In this document: in pieces, positions 9,576 through 16,518 of the stretch
How the letters are laid out: the number at the start of each line of letters is the position of its first letter
Numbering within the stretch: the first letter of the stretch is position 1
Origin: Gemmatimonadota bacterium
Lineage (GTDB): Bacteria; Gemmatimonadota; Gemmatimonadetes; Longimicrobiales; Gaopeijiaceae
Assembly: GCA_003564295.1 (NCBI GenBank)
Contig: PXFI01000075.1
Span: forward strand, 1-33,782
Reading direction: 5' to 3'
Length of the DNA stretch: 33,782 nucleotides
Notes under the pieces: generated by a model
Database searches by the model: none
The model's input: the letters and a program-made list of their open reading frames with translations, nothing else
Told to the model about the DNA's origin: nothing
Program-made: the position numbers and the translations under genes

Positions 9576-9603
9576 TTGACCCCTTCCACCGCCTTCTCAT
9601 AGC
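9576..9603 (+). promoter_or_regulatory. Candidate promoter for the his leader/operon
   Basis: TTGACC (9576-9581), 16-nt spacer, weak -10 CATAGC (9598-9603). Predicts a transcription start at about the leader ATG. Confidence 0.35.
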
Positions 9604-9611
9604 TTTCCATC

Positions 9612-9692
9612 ATGAAGAACCAGGCGACGGTCCGGCATCATCATCACCATGCGGCCCGCAAGGGCCCGCTGGCAGGGATGGTCTGTGCCTGA
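9612..9692 (+). CDS. hisL: Histidine-rich leader peptide (his attenuator), 26 aa
   Basis: ATG AAG AAC CAG GCG ACG GTC CGG CAT CAT CAT CAC CAT GCG GCC CGC AAG GGC CCG CTG GCA GGG ATG GTC TGT GCC TGA = MKNQATVRHHHHHAARKGPLAGMVCA. Immediately upstream of an intrinsic terminator and hisG. Too short for the supplied ORF track. Confidence 0.85.
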   Translation: MKNQATVRHHHHHAARKGPLAGMVCA

Positions 9693-9722
9693 TTGAAGCC
9701 CATAACAGACCGAAATCACCGC

Positions 9723-9754
9723 CGCGGCCCTTCACGACGGGCCGCGCTTTTTTT
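9723..9754 (+). terminator. his operon attenuator terminator
   Basis: CGCGGCCC-TTCACGAC-GGGCCGCG, an 8-bp all-GC stem, then C and TTTTTTT. Located upstream of hisG rather than downstream of a gene. Confidence 0.9.
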
Positions 9755-9829
9755 GTCCAGGCCGGCCGACAGGCTTTCCCTTGTTCGGCTGCGCCGGCGA
9801 GACCAATGGAAACAGCTTCGGAGAGAATC

Positions 9830-10696
9830 ATGGTTTTGCGAGTTGCGCTACCCAACAAGGGACGCCTGGCCGACCAGGCCCTCACCCTCTTTGAGAAAGC
9901 CGGCCTCAAGGCCGAGTCCCGGGTGGACCGAGCCCTGGTGGCGAATATGGGATCCGACTTCCAGGCCATCTTCCTCCGGGCACAGGACATCCCGGAGTTC
10001 GTGGCTGACGGAGCCGCCGACCTGGGTGTCACCGGGGCCGACCTGGTGGCCGAGTCCGGCAGGACCGTCCAAGAACTCCTCGACCTCCAGTTCGGACGCT
10101 GCCGACTGGCTCTGGCGGTTCGAGACGACAGCAGGGTGAAGGACGTGGAGGATCTGGAGCCCGGCACCCGGGTTGCCACCTCCTTTCCCCGGGTCACAGA
10201 GGGGTTCTTCCGGGAGCTCGGCCTGGAGATACGGGTCGCCCCGGTCTCCGGGGCTGCGGAGATCGCTCCCCACCTGGGCGTGGCGGAGGTCATCGCGGAC
10301 CTGGTCTCCACCGGCTCCACATTGAGAGTAAACGGTCTCAGGGAGATCGCCACCATCCTCAACTCCACGGCCCGACTCATCGGCAGCAGCAAGGTCACCC
10401 ATGATTCCTTCAAGGGTCCCCGGGTGGCGGAGCTCGTGGTGGCACTCGAGTCAGTGATCAGAGCCGCTGCCAAGCGTTACCTCATGGCCAACGTCCCAAG
10501 AGACCGCCTGGAGGAGGTGAAAGAGATCATCCCGGGCCTGTCGGGGCCCACCATCGTGGAGATCCAGAACGCCGGTCGCTGGGTGGCAGCCCATGCCGTG
10601 GTGGATGCGGACCGGATCTACCAGACCATCACCAGGCTCAAGGCCATCGGTGCCGAGGGCATCCTGGTGACGCCTATTGAACGGCTTACGCCCTGA
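9830..10696 (+). CDS. hisG: ATP phosphoribosyltransferase, long form with C-terminal regulatory domain
   Basis: VLRVALPNKGRLADQALTLFEKAGL, DLGVTGADLV, ATSFPRVTEGFF, EVIADLVSTGSTLR, and a C-terminal ACT-like region ending IGAEGILVTPIERLTP. Start MVLRVALPN preceded by GGAGAG. Confidence 0.95.
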   Translation: MVLRVALPNKGRLADQALTLFEKAGLKAESRVDRALVANMGSDFQAIFLRAQDIPEFVADGAADLGVTGADLVAESGRTVQELLDLQFGRCRLALAVRDDSRVKDVEDLEPGTRVATSFPRVTEGFFRELGLEIRVAPVSGAAEIAPHLGVAEVIADLVSTGSTLRVNGLREIATILNSTARLIGSSKVTHDSFKGPRVAELVVALESVIRAAAKRYLMANVPRDRLEEVKEIIPGLSGPTIVEIQNAGRWVAAHAVVDADRIYQTITRLKAIGAEGILVTPIERLTP

Positions 10697-10706
10697 GGTC
10701 GTGGCC

Positions 10707-12002
10707 ATGAGACTGCGCATCGACAAGCCCCTCGCTCAACTCACCCCCCGGGAGCGCTCCCGCCTCCTGGATCGACGGCCCGCTGATGAACCTCAACTTA
10801 CGGATCAGGTCCGCGCCCTGCTGGCCCGGGTGCGGCGGGAGGGGGACCGAGCCCTCCGGGAGATGGCCCGGGAATTCGACGGAGTGGAGCTCCCCGGACT
10901 GGAGGTGCCCCGGCAGCTGTGGACCGCCGCCGTCCAACGCTTGGATCCGGCCCTCCTGCAGAACCTGGAGGAAGCCGCTCGAAACATCCATGCCTTCCAC
11001 CGCGCCCAGATCCCTCAGGACATTCAAGTTACTGTCCGACCTGGTGTTACGCTCGGGAGGCGATCTGTGCCCCTCTCGGTGGCGGGAGTCTACGCTCCGG
11101 GAGGCCGGGCCGCCTATCCCACCAGCGTCCTCATGGGCGTGGTTCCGGCGAGAGCCGCAGGTGTGGGAGAGGTCATCCTGTGCTCCCCTCCCGGCCCGTC
11201 AGGATACCCCCCCGACCAGGTTCTGGCAGCTTCCGCAATCGCCGGGGCCTCTCGTCTCTTTGCTCTTGGGGGAGCCGGAGCAATCGGGGCCATGGCTTTC
11301 GGGACCGCCACTGTGCCACGGACCCAGGTCGTGGTGGGGCCGGGCAACCGTTACGTAACCGAGGCCAAACGTCAGGTGGCCGGAGAGGTCATCATCGATT
11401 CCCCGGCAGGGCCCTCGGAGGTCCTGGTCCTGGCCGACGAAAGTGCCGACCCCCGCCTCTGCGCACTGGAGCTCGTCTGCCAGGCGGAGCATGACCCGGA
11501 AGCGGCCGTGGCATTGGTGACGGATTCCGCCCCACTCCTGGACCGCGTTCGGGGCGTCCTCCTGAAGGAGGCGTCCCAGACTCCCCGATGGGAGATCGTG
11601 GAGAAGGCTCTGCACTCCAACGGTGCCCTTCTCCTGGCAGGCACATGGGATGAAGCTGTGGCCTTCGCCCGGGACTATGCCCCGGAGCACCTGGCTCTCT
11701 TCACCAAAGATCCGAGGCGCGACCTGGAAGAGATCCCGACAGCCGGCACTGCGTTCCTGGGCCAGGCGGCGGCGGTGGCCTTCGGGGATTATCTTACCGG
11801 AGCCAACCACGTCCTCCCTACGGGGGGGATGGCTCGGGCTTTTTCGAGCCTTTCAACCATCCACTTTCTCCGTATGTACACATGGCAGGAGATCACCCCG
11901 ATGGCAGCGGCAGCCATGAGCCCTGCCGTGGAACGCATGGCCGAGGCCGAGGGGCTGCCAGCCCATGCTGAAGCCGTTCGAGCCCGGAGGGTCCCCAGAT
12001 GA
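10707..12002 (+). CDS. hisD: Histidinol dehydrogenase
   Basis: VAGVYAPGGRAAYPTSVLMGVVPARAAGV, GPGNRYVTEAKRQVAGEVIIDSPAGPSEVLVLAD, YAPEHLAL, YLTGANHVLPTGG. Confidence 0.97.
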   Translation: MRLRIDKPLAQLTPRERSRLLDRRPADEPQLTDQVRALLARVRREGDRALREMAREFDGVELPGLEVPRQLWTAAVQRLDPALLQNLEEAARNIHAFHRAQIPQDIQVTVRPGVTLGRRSVPLSVAGVYAPGGRAAYPTSVLMGVVPARAAGVGEVILCSPPGPSGYPPDQVLAASAIAGASRLFALGGAGAIGAMAFGTATVPRTQVVVGPGNRYVTEAKRQVAGEVIIDSPAGPSEVLVLADESADPRLCALELVCQAEHDPEAAVALVTDSAPLLDRVRGVLLKEASQTPRWEIVEKALHSNGALLLAGTWDEAVAFARDYAPEHLALFTKDPRRDLEEIPTAGTAFLGQAAAVAFGDYLTGANHVLPTGGMARAFSSLSTIHFLRMYTWQEITPMAAAAMSPAVERMAEAEGLPAHAEAVRARRVPR

Positions 12003-12060
12003 TCTCCACCCAATCCGACCCACACGGGATGACAGGGATCCCGGCCTCCCGGAGGAACCA

Positions 12061-13116
12061 ATGACCCGCTTCCCCCGACAGGACTATGCCCAATTGACCC
12101 CCTACGACCCGGACCGCAAGCCCGTGGCCGTGGATCTCAGCGACAACAGCAACCTGTGGGGGCCAAACCCTGCGGCCCTGGAAGCCGTGCGGCAAGCTCC
12201 TCTGGAGGCCCTGACCCGCTACCCGTCCGTCTACGCCACTGAGCTCAAGGCGGCGGTGGCCCAGAAGTACGGCGTACCCGTCGACGCCGTGACCACGGGG
12301 TGCGGCTCCGACGACATACTGGACTCGGTGTGCCGGGCCGCAGTCTTTCCACCTGGCCTAATGACCTTCCCTGCTCCCTCCTTCTCCATGGCGGAGGTCT
12401 TCGCTCGTATGAACGGCCTTGAGGCCCGGGCCCTTCCATGGTCCAGGGCAGAGGTGGATCCCGCCCGGCTCCTCCTGGACGAACCGGACATCATCTACCT
12501 TTGCCGGCCCAACAATCCCACGGGAAGGTCCATTCCCAGGGATTGGATCCTGGGCCTCCTGGCTCTGGGCGGACCCGATGGCCCCGTGGTCGTCCTGGAC
12601 GAGGCCTACGGCGACTTCGCCGACGACAGCTTCCTCAGGGACGCCCCCAACACGGACCGGCTCCTGGTGGTTCGCACCCTCTCGAAGCTTTATGGGTTGG
12701 CGGGCCTCCGGGTGGGTTTTGCGGTAGGTCCCTCGACCTTGGTCCAGGAGGTCGAGAAGTCCCGGGGTCCCTACAAGGTGAGTCAACTCGGTGCCCTGGC
12801 GGCGGTGGCAGCTCTTGGAGACATATCAGGCTGGGCCGACGGTATCCGACACCGGACGCTCCAGAATCGGGACCGGCTGGCTGCGGAATTGCGCTCCAGG
12901 GGCCTTCAACCCCCTCCATCCCAGGCGAATTTTCTCCTCGTCCCGGTGGAACCCGCCGGCGCGGTGGAGGTGAATGACGCCCTCAGAGAACGGGGAGTGG
13001 CAACCCGTCCCTTCCCTCAGCTGCCCGAGCTGGGGGAAGCCCTCCGGGTCACCATCGGACCCTGGGAACAGATGGAGATCTTCCTCTCGGCCCTGGACGA
13101 GCTCCTCCAGCCATGA
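12061..13116 (+). CDS. hisC: Histidinol-phosphate aminotransferase
   Basis: DLSDNSNLWGPNP, CGSDDILD, CRPNNPTG, VVLDEAYGDF, TLSKLYGLAGLRVGFAVG; in his operon. Confidence 0.93.
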   Translation: MTRFPRQDYAQLTPYDPDRKPVAVDLSDNSNLWGPNPAALEAVRQAPLEALTRYPSVYATELKAAVAQKYGVPVDAVTTGCGSDDILDSVCRAAVFPPGLMTFPAPSFSMAEVFARMNGLEARALPWSRAEVDPARLLLDEPDIIYLCRPNNPTGRSIPRDWILGLLALGGPDGPVVVLDEAYGDFADDSFLRDAPNTDRLLVVRTLSKLYGLAGLRVGFAVGPSTLVQEVEKSRGPYKVSQLGALAAVAALGDISGWADGIRHRTLQNRDRLAAELRSRGLQPPPSQANFLLVPVEPAGAVEVNDALRERGVATRPFPQLPELGEALRVTIGPWEQMEIFLSALDELLQP

Positions 13117-13718
13117 AGATCGCTCTCTTCGACTATGGGACCGGGAACCTCCACTCCCTGGGGAAGGCCCTGGCGGCGGCAGGTGCCACGGTGACCATCA
13201 CCAGCCGTTGGAAGGACGCCCTGGCCCTGGACGCCCTGGTTCTCCCGGGGGTGGGTGCTTTCGGGTCTGCTGTCAAGTCCCTGGGGTCGGAAACCGCCAG
13301 GGTCCGGGAAGCGCTGGAAGCGGGACTTCCCTGCCTTGGGATCTGCCTGGGCATGCAGCTCCTATTCCATCGGTCCCATGAGGGAGAAGGCAAGGGGATC
13401 GGATTCTTATCGGGATCCGTGCGGCGACTCCGGACCCACATCACCCCCCAGATGGGGTGGAACGATGTGCATATTGCCCCGACGGGCTTGGAGCCCCTGT
13501 TCCAGGGTGTGGACAACCTGGTGGCTTACTACGCCAACTCCTACGTGTGCCAGCCATCGGACCAGGGTTTCGTCATCGCCACATCCACCTATCAGGGGGA
13601 CACCTTCCCCGCCGCCGTCCGCAGATTGCACACCTGGGGAGTCCAGTTCCACCCGGAAAAGAGCTCAGCCCAGGGACTCCACATCATCTCGAACTTCTTG
13701 CGGCAGGTGTGCCCATGA
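13113..13718 (+). CDS. hisH: Imidazole glycerol phosphate synthase, glutamine amidotransferase subunit
   Basis: FDYGTGNLHSLGKAL, LPGVGAFG, PCLGICLGMQLLF, GVQFHPEKSS; starts in a 4-bp overlap with hisC. Confidence 0.96.
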   Translation: MKIALFDYGTGNLHSLGKALAAAGATVTITSRWKDALALDALVLPGVGAFGSAVKSLGSETARVREALEAGLPCLGICLGMQLLFHRSHEGEGKGIGFLSGSVRRLRTHITPQMGWNDVHIAPTGLEPLFQGVDNLVAYYANSYVCQPSDQGFVIATSTYQGDTFPAAVRRLHTWGVQFHPEKSSAQGLHIISNFLRQVCP

Positions 13719-14428
13719 TCGCGATCCCCGCCCTGGACCTGAGGAATGGCCGGTGCGTTCAGCTGGTGGGCGGGCGGCCCGAAGAGGAACGGGTGTCACT
13801 GCCGGATCCGTTGGCCCAAGCCAAGTACTGGTGGGACTTCGGGTTCCGGCACTTGCATATCGTGGACCTGGACGCGGCCCTCTCCCTGGGCCAGAACCGG
13901 GGGATCATCCGGGAGATCGTGTCTACCACCGACGCCGAGGTCCAGGCAGGTGGCGGCGTACGCAGCCGGATCGACGTGGAGGAGATCCTGGCCCTGGGAG
14001 TGTGCCGGGTCATGGTGGGGACCCGGGCCGTGGAAGACCCGCAATGGCTCCAGGAGATGGCGGAAGCCTACTCACGCCGCATCATGGTGGCCACGGATAC
14101 CCGAGACGGTCTCGTCCTCCGCCGGGGGTGGACCGAGTCCAGCGGAACTCCGGTCCAGGCCCTCCTGGCCAACTTGGATCCCCTGCCCCTGGCCGGTGTC
14201 CTCTGCACCGACGTGTCCCGTGAGGGACGAATGGAAGGAATCGACCTCCCTGGAGCGGAAGCGGTCATCCGGGGAACCCGGCACCCGGTCTGGATCGCCG
14301 GGGGCATCACCACCATGGAGGAGGTCCGGGCCCTGAACCTGGCCGGGGCCGCCGGGGCCGTTTTGGGCATGGCCATCTACACGGGGGTACTGCCCCCTGA
14401 GCAGCTCGCCGAGGAGTTCGGAGCATGA
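13715..14428 (+). CDS. hisA: ProFAR isomerase (phosphoribosylformimino-5-aminoimidazole carboxamide ribotide isomerase)
   Basis: MIAIPALDLRNGRCVQLVGG, HIVDLDAALS, QAGGGVRS, GVLCTDVSREGRMEGID, WIAGGITTMEE; ATGA overlap with hisH. Confidence 0.93.
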   Translation: MIAIPALDLRNGRCVQLVGGRPEEERVSLPDPLAQAKYWWDFGFRHLHIVDLDAALSLGQNRGIIREIVSTTDAEVQAGGGVRSRIDVEEILALGVCRVMVGTRAVEDPQWLQEMAEAYSRRIMVATDTRDGLVLRRGWTESSGTPVQALLANLDPLPLAGVLCTDVSREGRMEGIDLPGAEAVIRGTRHPVWIAGGITTMEEVRALNLAGAAGAVLGMAIYTGVLPPEQLAEEFGA

Positions 14429-14964
14429 CCAGATTGAAGAGAGATACCAAGGAGACATCCATCCGCCTGGCCGTGCAGAGGTCCGGTGGCTCCATTCGGG
14501 TGGAGACGGACGACCGCTTCCTCTCCCACATGGTGGAGACCCTGGCCCGGTACGCCGGCCTGGGGTTGGAACTGGAGGCTGCAGGCGACCTGAGACACCA
14601 CCTGGTGGAGGACGTGGCCATCGCCCTGGGAACGGCCCTCCGGAAGGAGACCCCGGCCACGGCGGCCCGGTACGGATGGGCCCTGGTCCCCATGGACGAG
14701 GCCATGGCCCAGGTGGCCATGGACGTTGGGGGCCGCCCCTACTACCGGGGACCCCTTCCTTCCCGCCTCTACCAGCATTTCCTCGAGAGCCTGGCCGTGA
14801 ACCTGGGCGCCACCCTCCACGTCCGGATCGTCCGGGGCCGGGATCGGCACCACATAGTGGAAGCGGCTATCAAGGCCGTGGGCCTGGCCCTCCGGCAAGC
14901 CCTCCAGGAGGGGGAAACGGTCTTCAGCACCAAGGGATCCGTGAGCCTGGAATGGGAGGGTTGA
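14425..14964 (+). CDS. hisB: Imidazoleglycerol-phosphate dehydratase, divergent/short
   Basis: [71 protein letters not shown]; operon context. Overlaps the hisA stop. Confidence 0.85.
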
Positions 14965-15025
14965 TGCTCCCCTGTCGATTGCAGTGGGAGGACTTCTTTG
15001 GTTTCCGATGGGAAGGGGGCAGTTG

Positions 15026-15778
15026 ATGCTTCGTCCCCGGGTGGTAGTCTGCCTGGACGTGGACCAGGGCCGGGTGGTGAAGGGGACCCGCTTCAAGGGG
15101 CTCCGGGACGTGGGGGACCCGGTGGAGATGGCCCGACGCTACGAGGAGGAAGGTGCCGACGAAATAGTCTTCCTGGACATCTCGGCCTCGGCGGAGGGCA
15201 GAGGCACCCTCCTGGAGACGGTCCGGCGCACGGCGGAGGCGCTCTTCATTCCCCTTACGGTGGGAGGCGGAGTCAGGGACCTGGCAGACATGAGGGAGCT
15301 CCTCCGTGCCGGCGCCGACAAGATCAGCCTGAACACGGCCGCCGTGAGAGACCCGGAGCTCCTCACCCGGGGTGCCGAACAGTTCGGCAGGCAGTGCGTG
15401 GTGGCCAGCGTCGATGCGTCCCGGCAAGGGGAGGGCTGGCTTGCCTACATCCACGGAGGTCGGACACCCACCGGGCTGGACGGCGTGGAGTGGGCCGTGG
15501 AATGCGCCCGCCTGGGGGCCGGGGAGATCCTTCTCACCAGCATGGACCGGGACGGCGTCAGGACGGGCTACGATCTGGAGCTGACGCGCCGGGTGGCCAC
15601 GGCCGTCCACGTCCCCGTCATAGCCTCCGGCGGGGCAGGCCGGCCGGAGCACCTCAGGAACGCCTTCACGGAAGGGAAGGCATCCGCAGCCCTTCTGGCC
15701 GGGATTCTCCACGACGGACTCATCACTGTGGGGGAGATCAAGAAGGAGTTGGCTGGGTGGGGGATCGCCGTGCGATGA
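15026..15778 (+). CDS. hisF: Imidazole glycerol phosphate synthase, cyclase subunit
   Basis: [66 protein letters not shown]. Confidence 0.95.
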
Positions 15779-16518
15779 GCCTGGAGGCCAGAATGACAGA
15801 TCGCAGAATCGAGGAACCGGCGGACCTGGACGCCCTCTCCTTCCCGGAGACGGGCCTGCTCCCGGTGGTGACCCAGGACGCCGGGTCCGGGGAGATCCTC
15901 ATGTTGGCCTGGGCCAACCGCACAGCTCTGGAGCGGACCCTTGAGACGGGGCAGATGCACTACTGGTCCCGCTCCCGCCGGGAGATCTGGCACAAAGGCG
16001 CCATCTCCGGGAGCTTCCAGGATCTCCTCTCCCTCCACGCCGACTGCGACGGCGACACTCTCCTGGCGAGGGTAAGGACCCGGGGGCCCGCCTGCCACAC
16101 CGGGGACGCCACCTGCTTCGGGGAGCTGCCGGAGTCGGCTCTCCCCCTGGCCTCCGGCAGAGATCCGGCCACAGCCCAGGGCGAAGGGGCGATTCCGCTG
16201 CTCGGGGAAGAGACCATCCCCTCCACTTCCACCGTTCCCGGAGAATCCACCATCCCCGGCCTGTGGGCCGTGCTGGAGGAGCGGGCTGCCCTCCGTCCGG
16301 CCGCCAGCTACACCGTCCGGCTCCTGGAGGATGAGAATCTTCGCCTGAAGAAGCTGGGGGAGGAGACTGCGGAGCTGATTCTGGCCCTGAGCAGGGCAGA
16401 CCATGGTCGGATTCCGGAGGAGGCCGCAGACCTCGTCTACCACCTTCTGGTGGCGCTGAAGGCCTCCGGCGGAACCCTGGAAGGGCTCCTCCGGGCGCTG
16501 GAAGCCCGAAAGCCATGA
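15775..16518 (+). CDS. hisIE: Bifunctional phosphoribosyl-AMP cyclohydrolase / phosphoribosyl-ATP pyrophosphatase
   Basis: HisI part: [57 protein letters not shown]. HisE part: [32 protein letters not shown] overlap with hisF. Confidence 0.95.

Follow-up and report, generated by a model that had tools for sequence, protein, structure and literature searches.

A ribosome-mediated attenuator very probably controls the his operon of a Gemmatimonadota bacterium, and related leaders carry other sensor codons

Introduction

How is histidine synthesis controlled in a Gemmatimonadota bacterium in which hisG is preceded by a short open reading frame with a run of His codons? Leader-peptide attenuators of his genes are on record in the gamma-proteobacteria and in some Firmicutes. 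They have been described for hisZ/hisS* in bacilli (PMC2965389) and in several groups of the Firmicutes (PMC9413887), and a survey of the Actinobacteria reported no his leader-peptide attenuator. A reading based on the sequence alone had proposed classical his attenuation for the present locus and was not aware of such an attenuator in this lineage. This agrees with our search of the open-access literature, in which we found nothing joining Gemmatimonadota or Myxococcota to leader-peptide attenuation (subscription papers were outside its scope). Here we examine the locus within the whole stretch of DNA that was analysed, 33,782 nucleotides of contig PXFI01000075.1 (the window), and in related genomes.

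Results

A His-codon leader fronts the his operon

Gene searches identified both proposed neighbours of the leader, uvrA upstream (9524-6666, minus strand) and hisG downstream. As all his genes after hisG lie on the same strand, the leader fronts a full his operon. The distance of 75 nt between the end of the terminator T-run and the hisG ATG at 9830 (9755-9829), given in the sequence-only reading, is borne out by the coordinates, and the 26-codon open reading frame with five His codons at 9636-9650 was reproduced at exactly these positions. By chance, five consecutive His codons would be expected 0.01 times per window on both strands, and this run stands in front of a his operon. The features of the locus are as follows:

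9576-9581, plus strand: TTGACC as a -35-like element, 36 nt upstream of the leader ATG (sequence; TTGAC likewise in relatives)
9600-9605, plus strand: weak -10-like element TAGCTT (sequence; most relatives have TANNNT 11-16 nt upstream of the leader start)
9612-9692, plus strand: leader peptide ORF of 26 codons without Shine-Dalgarno motif, encoding MKNQATVRHHHHHAARKGPLAGMVCA* (translation; conserved His-rich ORF)
9636-9650, plus strand: five consecutive His codons, the proposed sensor (sequence; chance estimate)
9820-9825, plus strand: GGAGAG, likely ribosome binding site of hisG (sequence)
9830-10696, plus strand: hisG, first gene of the proposed controlled operon (TIGR00070, 5e-64)
10677-16518, plus strand: remaining his genes, namely hisD, hisC, hisH, a hisA-type gene, hisB, hisF and hisIE

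A generic consensus scan called no promoter at the site of these two elements. A comparison of the hisG loci revealed that the first base of TTGAC lies 34-40 nt upstream of the start codon chosen for the leader at 74 of 93 loci and 41-54 nt upstream in a further 14, many of which apparently had the wrong in-frame start chosen, and that the motif is essentially missing at 55-152 nt. Shine-Dalgarno-like motifs precede the leader start at only 3 of 95 loci. From the spacing of TTGAC and TANNNT we strongly infer a transcription start that coincides with the leader start codon or lies only a few bases from it. The 5' end is thus a predicted one, and the leader mRNA is probably leaderless, without a measured 5' end. 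Several thrS leaders (see below) deviate, as TTGAC lies further upstream and some have a purine-rich GGAG-type motif before the ATG. The promoter-like TTGACC and an extra hairpin around the leader stop were absent from the earlier reading.

Three competing pairings in the leader RNA

The central element of the proposed switch is a set of mutually exclusive helices:

9653-9666, plus strand: hairpin H1, GGCCC 9653-9657 with GGGCC 9662-9666, loop GCAA, hiding the antiterminator arm (covariation; model)
9660-9666, plus strand: antiterminator 5' arm AAGGGCC, partner 9726-9732 (covariation; swap test; recoding control)
9726-9732, plus strand: antiterminator 3' arm GGCCCTT, overlapping the terminator 5' arm (sequence; covariation)
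9723-9754, plus strand: intrinsic terminator, 8-bp GC stem 9723-9730/9739-9746 and T7 9748-9754 (terminator call; covariation)
9680-9711, plus strand: possible hairpin H2 spanning the leader stop, GGTCTGT 9680-9686 with ACAGACC 9705-9711 (sequence)

All three helices of the sequence-only reading were recovered: the GGCCC-GCAA-GGGCC hairpin directly after the His codons is present and its helix covaries across relatives, the AAGGGCC/GGCCCTT antiterminator that consumes the left terminator arm is present and supported by covariation, and the terminator with its 8-bp stem and T7 has the exact coordinates and likewise a covarying helix. Folding of 9612-9760, which had been suggested as a check, yielded a z-score of -2.5 against shuffles, which is modest and not decisive for a single locus. 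The weight of the structural evidence therefore rests on conservation. Hairpin H2 is retained in the closest relative (L003) with two compensatory changes; across loci it is not clearly above shuffles (mean z -0.7) and is therefore kept out of our main claims.

Conservation and covariation at hisG loci

After re-orientation of reversed loci and removal of duplicates the hisG set comprised 99 non-redundant loci, mostly from Gemmatimonadota and also from Myxococcaceae. The window belongs to a Gemmatimonadota metagenome-assembled genome, and its closest hisG relatives are mostly Gemmatimonadota with Myxococcaceae next. Upstream of hisG, 96 of the 99 loci have a stretch of eight codons that includes four or more for His, and a GC-rich hairpin with a T-run lies between leader and hisG at 95 of those 96. 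Relatives lacking the His run and the terminator had been named as an outcome that would refute attenuation, and these counts do not meet it. Locus L012 has only three His codons within eight, yet it matches the RNA model (G030:C33), and the leader is missing at two hisG loci, L016 and L030. The same His leader precedes hisG in L091 and L109, labelled Candidatus Eisenbacteria, which are either a third phylum or mislabelled contigs. L044 and L060, labelled Gammaproteobacteria and Candidatus Kuenenia, carry a Gemmatimonadota-like hisG with a His leader and are probably mislabelled or misbinned.

The core is very uniform, GGCCCGTCC-loop-GGACGGGCC-T(n), and a GACGGG copy of the terminator 3' arm directly follows the His run. 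The window carries linked changes: CCCTT stands in place of CCCGT in the terminator 5' arm and AAGGG in place of GACGGG in the antiterminator arm, with GACGGG retained in the terminator 3' arm. The antiterminator pairing is thus preserved at the cost of a shorter terminator. Covariation was analysed in an alignment of 33 sequences (A1). The terminator helix is paired in 88.5% of cells with two-sided changes at 8 of 13 pairs, the antiterminator helix in 87.2% with two-sided changes at 3 of 9 pairs, and H1 in 90.3% with strong covariation, one of its pairs occurring as six pair types (GU 9, GC 8, CG 6, UA 4, UG 4, AU 1). As a control, shifting the helices by one to three columns reduced pairing to about 32-61%.

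In a swap test with arms of equal length, antiterminator arms paired better with the terminator of their own locus than with those of other loci (overall p 1.5e-4). Within subgroups the p values were 0.04, 0.08 and 0.025, which indicates that relatedness accounts for part of the signal, and an earlier version, in which the terminator arms were unequal, had been uninformative (p 0.16). Over 32 loci, antiterminator pairing exceeds that of synonymous recodings (p 1e-6, uncorrected for relatedness); for the window alone the antiterminator was not significant in this comparison (p 0.42). Judged by these recodings, codon choice is a factor that strengthens the antiterminator family-wide beyond what the peptide requires.

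A ribosome-position model of the switch

To relate the pairings to the position of the ribosome we used a simple folding model in which the ribosome footprint is kept unpaired and the transcript ends in the terminator loop. Without a ribosome, the window leader was predicted to form H1 (0.94) rather than the antiterminator (0.06). With the A-site on the second His codon H1 still formed (0.88) and the antiterminator reached only 0.12, on the third to fifth His codon the antiterminator rose to 0.99-1.0, and from the codon after the His run onward it was 0, with H1 at 1.0 for a ribosome at the stop. Averaged over the family, the antiterminator reaches 0.82-0.90 with the ribosome on any of the first five codons of the His window and falls to about 0 at codons 9-13. 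Without a ribosome the average is nearly even (antiterminator 0.42, H1 0.52), which is one weakness of the result. Another is that, with the ribosome near the stop, the antiterminator partly returns when pairing across the ribosome is allowed, as was the case here.

The attenuation logic put forward for the locus is supported by the covarying exclusive pairings, and the ribosome-position model behaves as proposed; regulated readthrough itself remains an inference. RNA polymerase would start at or next to the leader ATG, and the first ribosome would load on the leaderless 5' end. With ample His-tRNA the ribosome would pass the His codons and reach the stop, H1 would refold behind it and hide the antiterminator arm, the terminator would form and transcription would end at about 9754. 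With scarce His-tRNA the ribosome would stall on the His codons and cover the H1 5' arm, and the freed arm 9660-9666 could capture the terminator 5' arm 9726-9732, leading to readthrough into hisG.

Paralogous leaders with exchanged sensor codons

The his leaders were used to build a covariance model (R1), which also matches leaders of other operons, and a combined model (R2) extended the search and added more. At E <= 0.01, R1 has matches in 171 of 395 Gemmatimonadota genomes and in 68 of 193 genomes of the Myxococcota, the phylum of M. xanthus; these counts include paralogues and chance matches and miss weak members. Examples of such leaders are MSCATAYRYYYYYATPNTGRWSRTR before DAHP synthase, MSSLSARANYSYRYYYATRSPGRRSERLRV before phenylalanine hydroxylase, MMRRERFFSQAFFFTTRTTGREGGCAAD before prephenate dehydratase, MSMHALRAGTTYTTTTTRVTTTTGRRRSRVR before aspartokinase and MSALITTTTTTTTGRTTGLGAACVD before ThrS. 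In a class-wide scan, 69 of 80 fetched matches could be assigned to a downstream gene. DAHP synthase accounts for 29 of these (on average 3.3 Tyr and 2.0 Phe per leader) and hisG for 28 (mean His 6.3), followed by phenylalanine hydroxylase with 7 (mean Tyr 3.1), thrS with 3 (mean Thr 8) and pheA with 2 (mean Phe 5). TTGAC spacing was one criterion for choosing start codons in this table, and its TTGAC spacing counts are therefore not independent evidence.

The window's own genome contains three leaders, for His (hisG), Tyr (DAHP synthase) and Thr (ThrS). The Tyr leader MMRRLSYYAYSYATRSAGRGGRRMRD* before DAHP synthase (L142/L170, G000:C364:6273-6395, E 3e-17) has TTGACA 36 nt before its ATG and the same scaffold as the his leader. 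The Thr leader MRAFRGATTTGTATRTTGWGPRRFV* before ThrS (L172, G000:C285:27508-27631, minus strand, E 0.012) has relatives with up to eight Thr codons in a run. Other leaders in this genome were sought with R1 and R2 only, and divergent Trp, Leu or Val types may be missed; the weak R1 matches L143-L149 lack a leader ORF with terminator and seem to be chance matches. In Myxococcus xanthus AM003 (L222, G404:C86:2120-2226) a poly-Thr ORF, VLTTTTTTTTTPRRARVV*, followed by a terminator precedes aspartokinase. Among the matches of the class-wide scan outside the 69, Tyr-rich leaders are found before prephenate dehydrogenase (TyrA) at L261 and L274 and, less clearly, at L278. In this remainder, too, citramalate synthase is preceded by Ile/Leu-codon leaders at L318 and L320, whose stem core is of a different, CTCTCGGAGAG type, which indicates that the scaffold diverges in this class. 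Eight further matches without a pathway-matched leader (L153, L195, L211, L221, L223, L284, L313, L319) were set aside.

One set of three linked columns (antiterminator arm, terminator 5' arm, terminator 3' arm) changes with the sensor class: aromatic and Thr leaders mostly have C-G-C where His leaders have G-C-G. This class-wide flip provides good evidence for selection on both pairings. We consider it likely, if less certain than attenuation at hisG itself, that Gemmatimonadota reuse one modular scaffold as a general amino-acid control whose copies differ mainly in their sensor codons, and that its His version also occurs in Myxococcota by descent or transfer. The scaffold would consist of a mostly leaderless start, sensor codons, H1 within the ORF, an antiterminator arm and a GC-rich terminator. 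Its pairs of sensor and target would be His with hisG and hisC, Tyr-Phe with DAHP synthase, Tyr with phenylalanine hydroxylase and TyrA, Phe with PheA, Thr with ThrS and aspartokinase, and Ile with citramalate synthase.

Two further observations concern individual classes. One genome has a second His leader (L151, G027:C210:21809-21937) before a hisC-type aminotransferase, about 9.5 kb from its hisG leader. Tyr leaders precede phenylalanine hydroxylase at L152, L154, L157, L161, L245, L247, L250 and L251, which suggests that the enzyme is regulated there as a tyrosine-making step.

Discussion

We are highly confident, although in the absence of expression, start-site or starvation data, that the hisGDCHABF-IE operon is controlled by its leader through ribosome-mediated transcription attenuation, with charged tRNA-His as the signal that is sensed. 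Sequence and comparison establish the individual elements with their arrangement and spacing, their conservation and covariation, and the fact that the pairings exclude one another; start site, ribosome stalling and regulated readthrough are inferred.

An ordinary short ORF with a terminator that merely insulates uvrA from hisG could be invoked, since the folding of a single locus, taken by itself, stands out only moderately (z -2.5). With the transcription of uvrA directed away from hisG, no need for insulation is apparent, and conservation over two phyla together with three covarying helices contradicts chance, so that this explanation is effectively refuted by the comparative data and hardly conceivable. 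It is also very improbable that the terminator is real and sensing does not proceed by stalling at the His codons, the His-rich peptide having a role of its own, for example in metal binding, or another factor being involved. Poly-His peptides can in general bind metals, and ribosome stalling is without measurement, but the same scaffold carries a Tyr, Phe, Thr or Ile run when the downstream gene belongs to that pathway, and outside the sensor run the peptide is constrained at the RNA level, as indicated by H1 covariation and the recoding control. The metal-binding explanation was considered and rejected. Somewhat less remote, though still unlikely, is that the terminated leader RNA of about 143 nt and/or the peptide act in trans in addition to attenuation, as reported for rnTrpL/peTrpL of Sinorhizobium meliloti (PMC7298713). 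The layout is shared with rnTrpL, a leaderless small RNA that starts at the leader ATG (PMC7298713), but the sequence indicates no target and the in-cis switch fully explains the conservation.

Attenuation by stalling at the His codons is a mechanism of a known kind, as leader-peptide his attenuators are known and leaderless attenuators have precedent. What appears to be new is the RNA family, its occurrence in these lineages and the modular way in which sensor codons are exchanged. A scan with the Rfam His_leader model, also suggested in the sequence-only reading, gave no match in the window at the gathering threshold, nor in the leader region at E <= 10. The same holds for T-box riboswitch models, no other Rfam family offered an alternative for the leader, and in ten relatives Rfam models including His_leader and T-box gave no match at E <= 1. 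With the enteric his attenuator (Rfam His_leader) the Gemmatimonadota leader shares a His-codon leader before hisG, competing antiterminator and terminator and a proposed stalling sensor, but it is probably leaderless, differs in its sequence core and has fewer segments, namely one sequestering hairpin within the ORF, one antiterminator and one terminator. The His attenuators of Firmicutes likewise combine a leader containing 3-5 or more His codons with a downstream attenuator structure, but they belong to different lineages, and no sharing of their scaffold with Tyr, Phe, Thr or Ile leaders has been reported. T-box riboswitches, which like these leaders precede amino-acid and tRNA-synthetase genes, likewise respond to tRNA charging, whereas the Gemmatimonadota leader, which has no T-box match, would sense through its leader codons.

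Precedents for a leaderless layout are rnTrpL, whose 5' end was measured at the start codon of its leader-peptide attenuator (PMC7298713), and the poly-Cys leaderless ORFs of mycobacteria (Canestrari et al. 2020, as cited in PMC13236596). Both have a start codon at the RNA 5' end, predicted in our case, and a codon run as sensor, but they concern other amino acids, phyla and RNA sequences, whereas the Gemmatimonadota scaffold is reused for several amino acids.

Regulation in Gemmatimonadota has been little studied, and the leader offers a concrete, conserved and easily annotated system for the control of amino-acid synthesis, which reaches the genetically tractable relative Myxococcus xanthus and is thus directly testable. 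Leader-peptide attenuation gains lineages and an RNA family outside Rfam, and our data suggest that leaderless initiation and attenuation may be coupled more widely than the known cases indicate. The Tyr-sensing leader before phenylalanine hydroxylase implies a role of this enzyme in tyrosine synthesis there. Furthermore, the paralogues, which have exchanged their sensor codons, amount to a natural experiment in the change of attenuator specificity.
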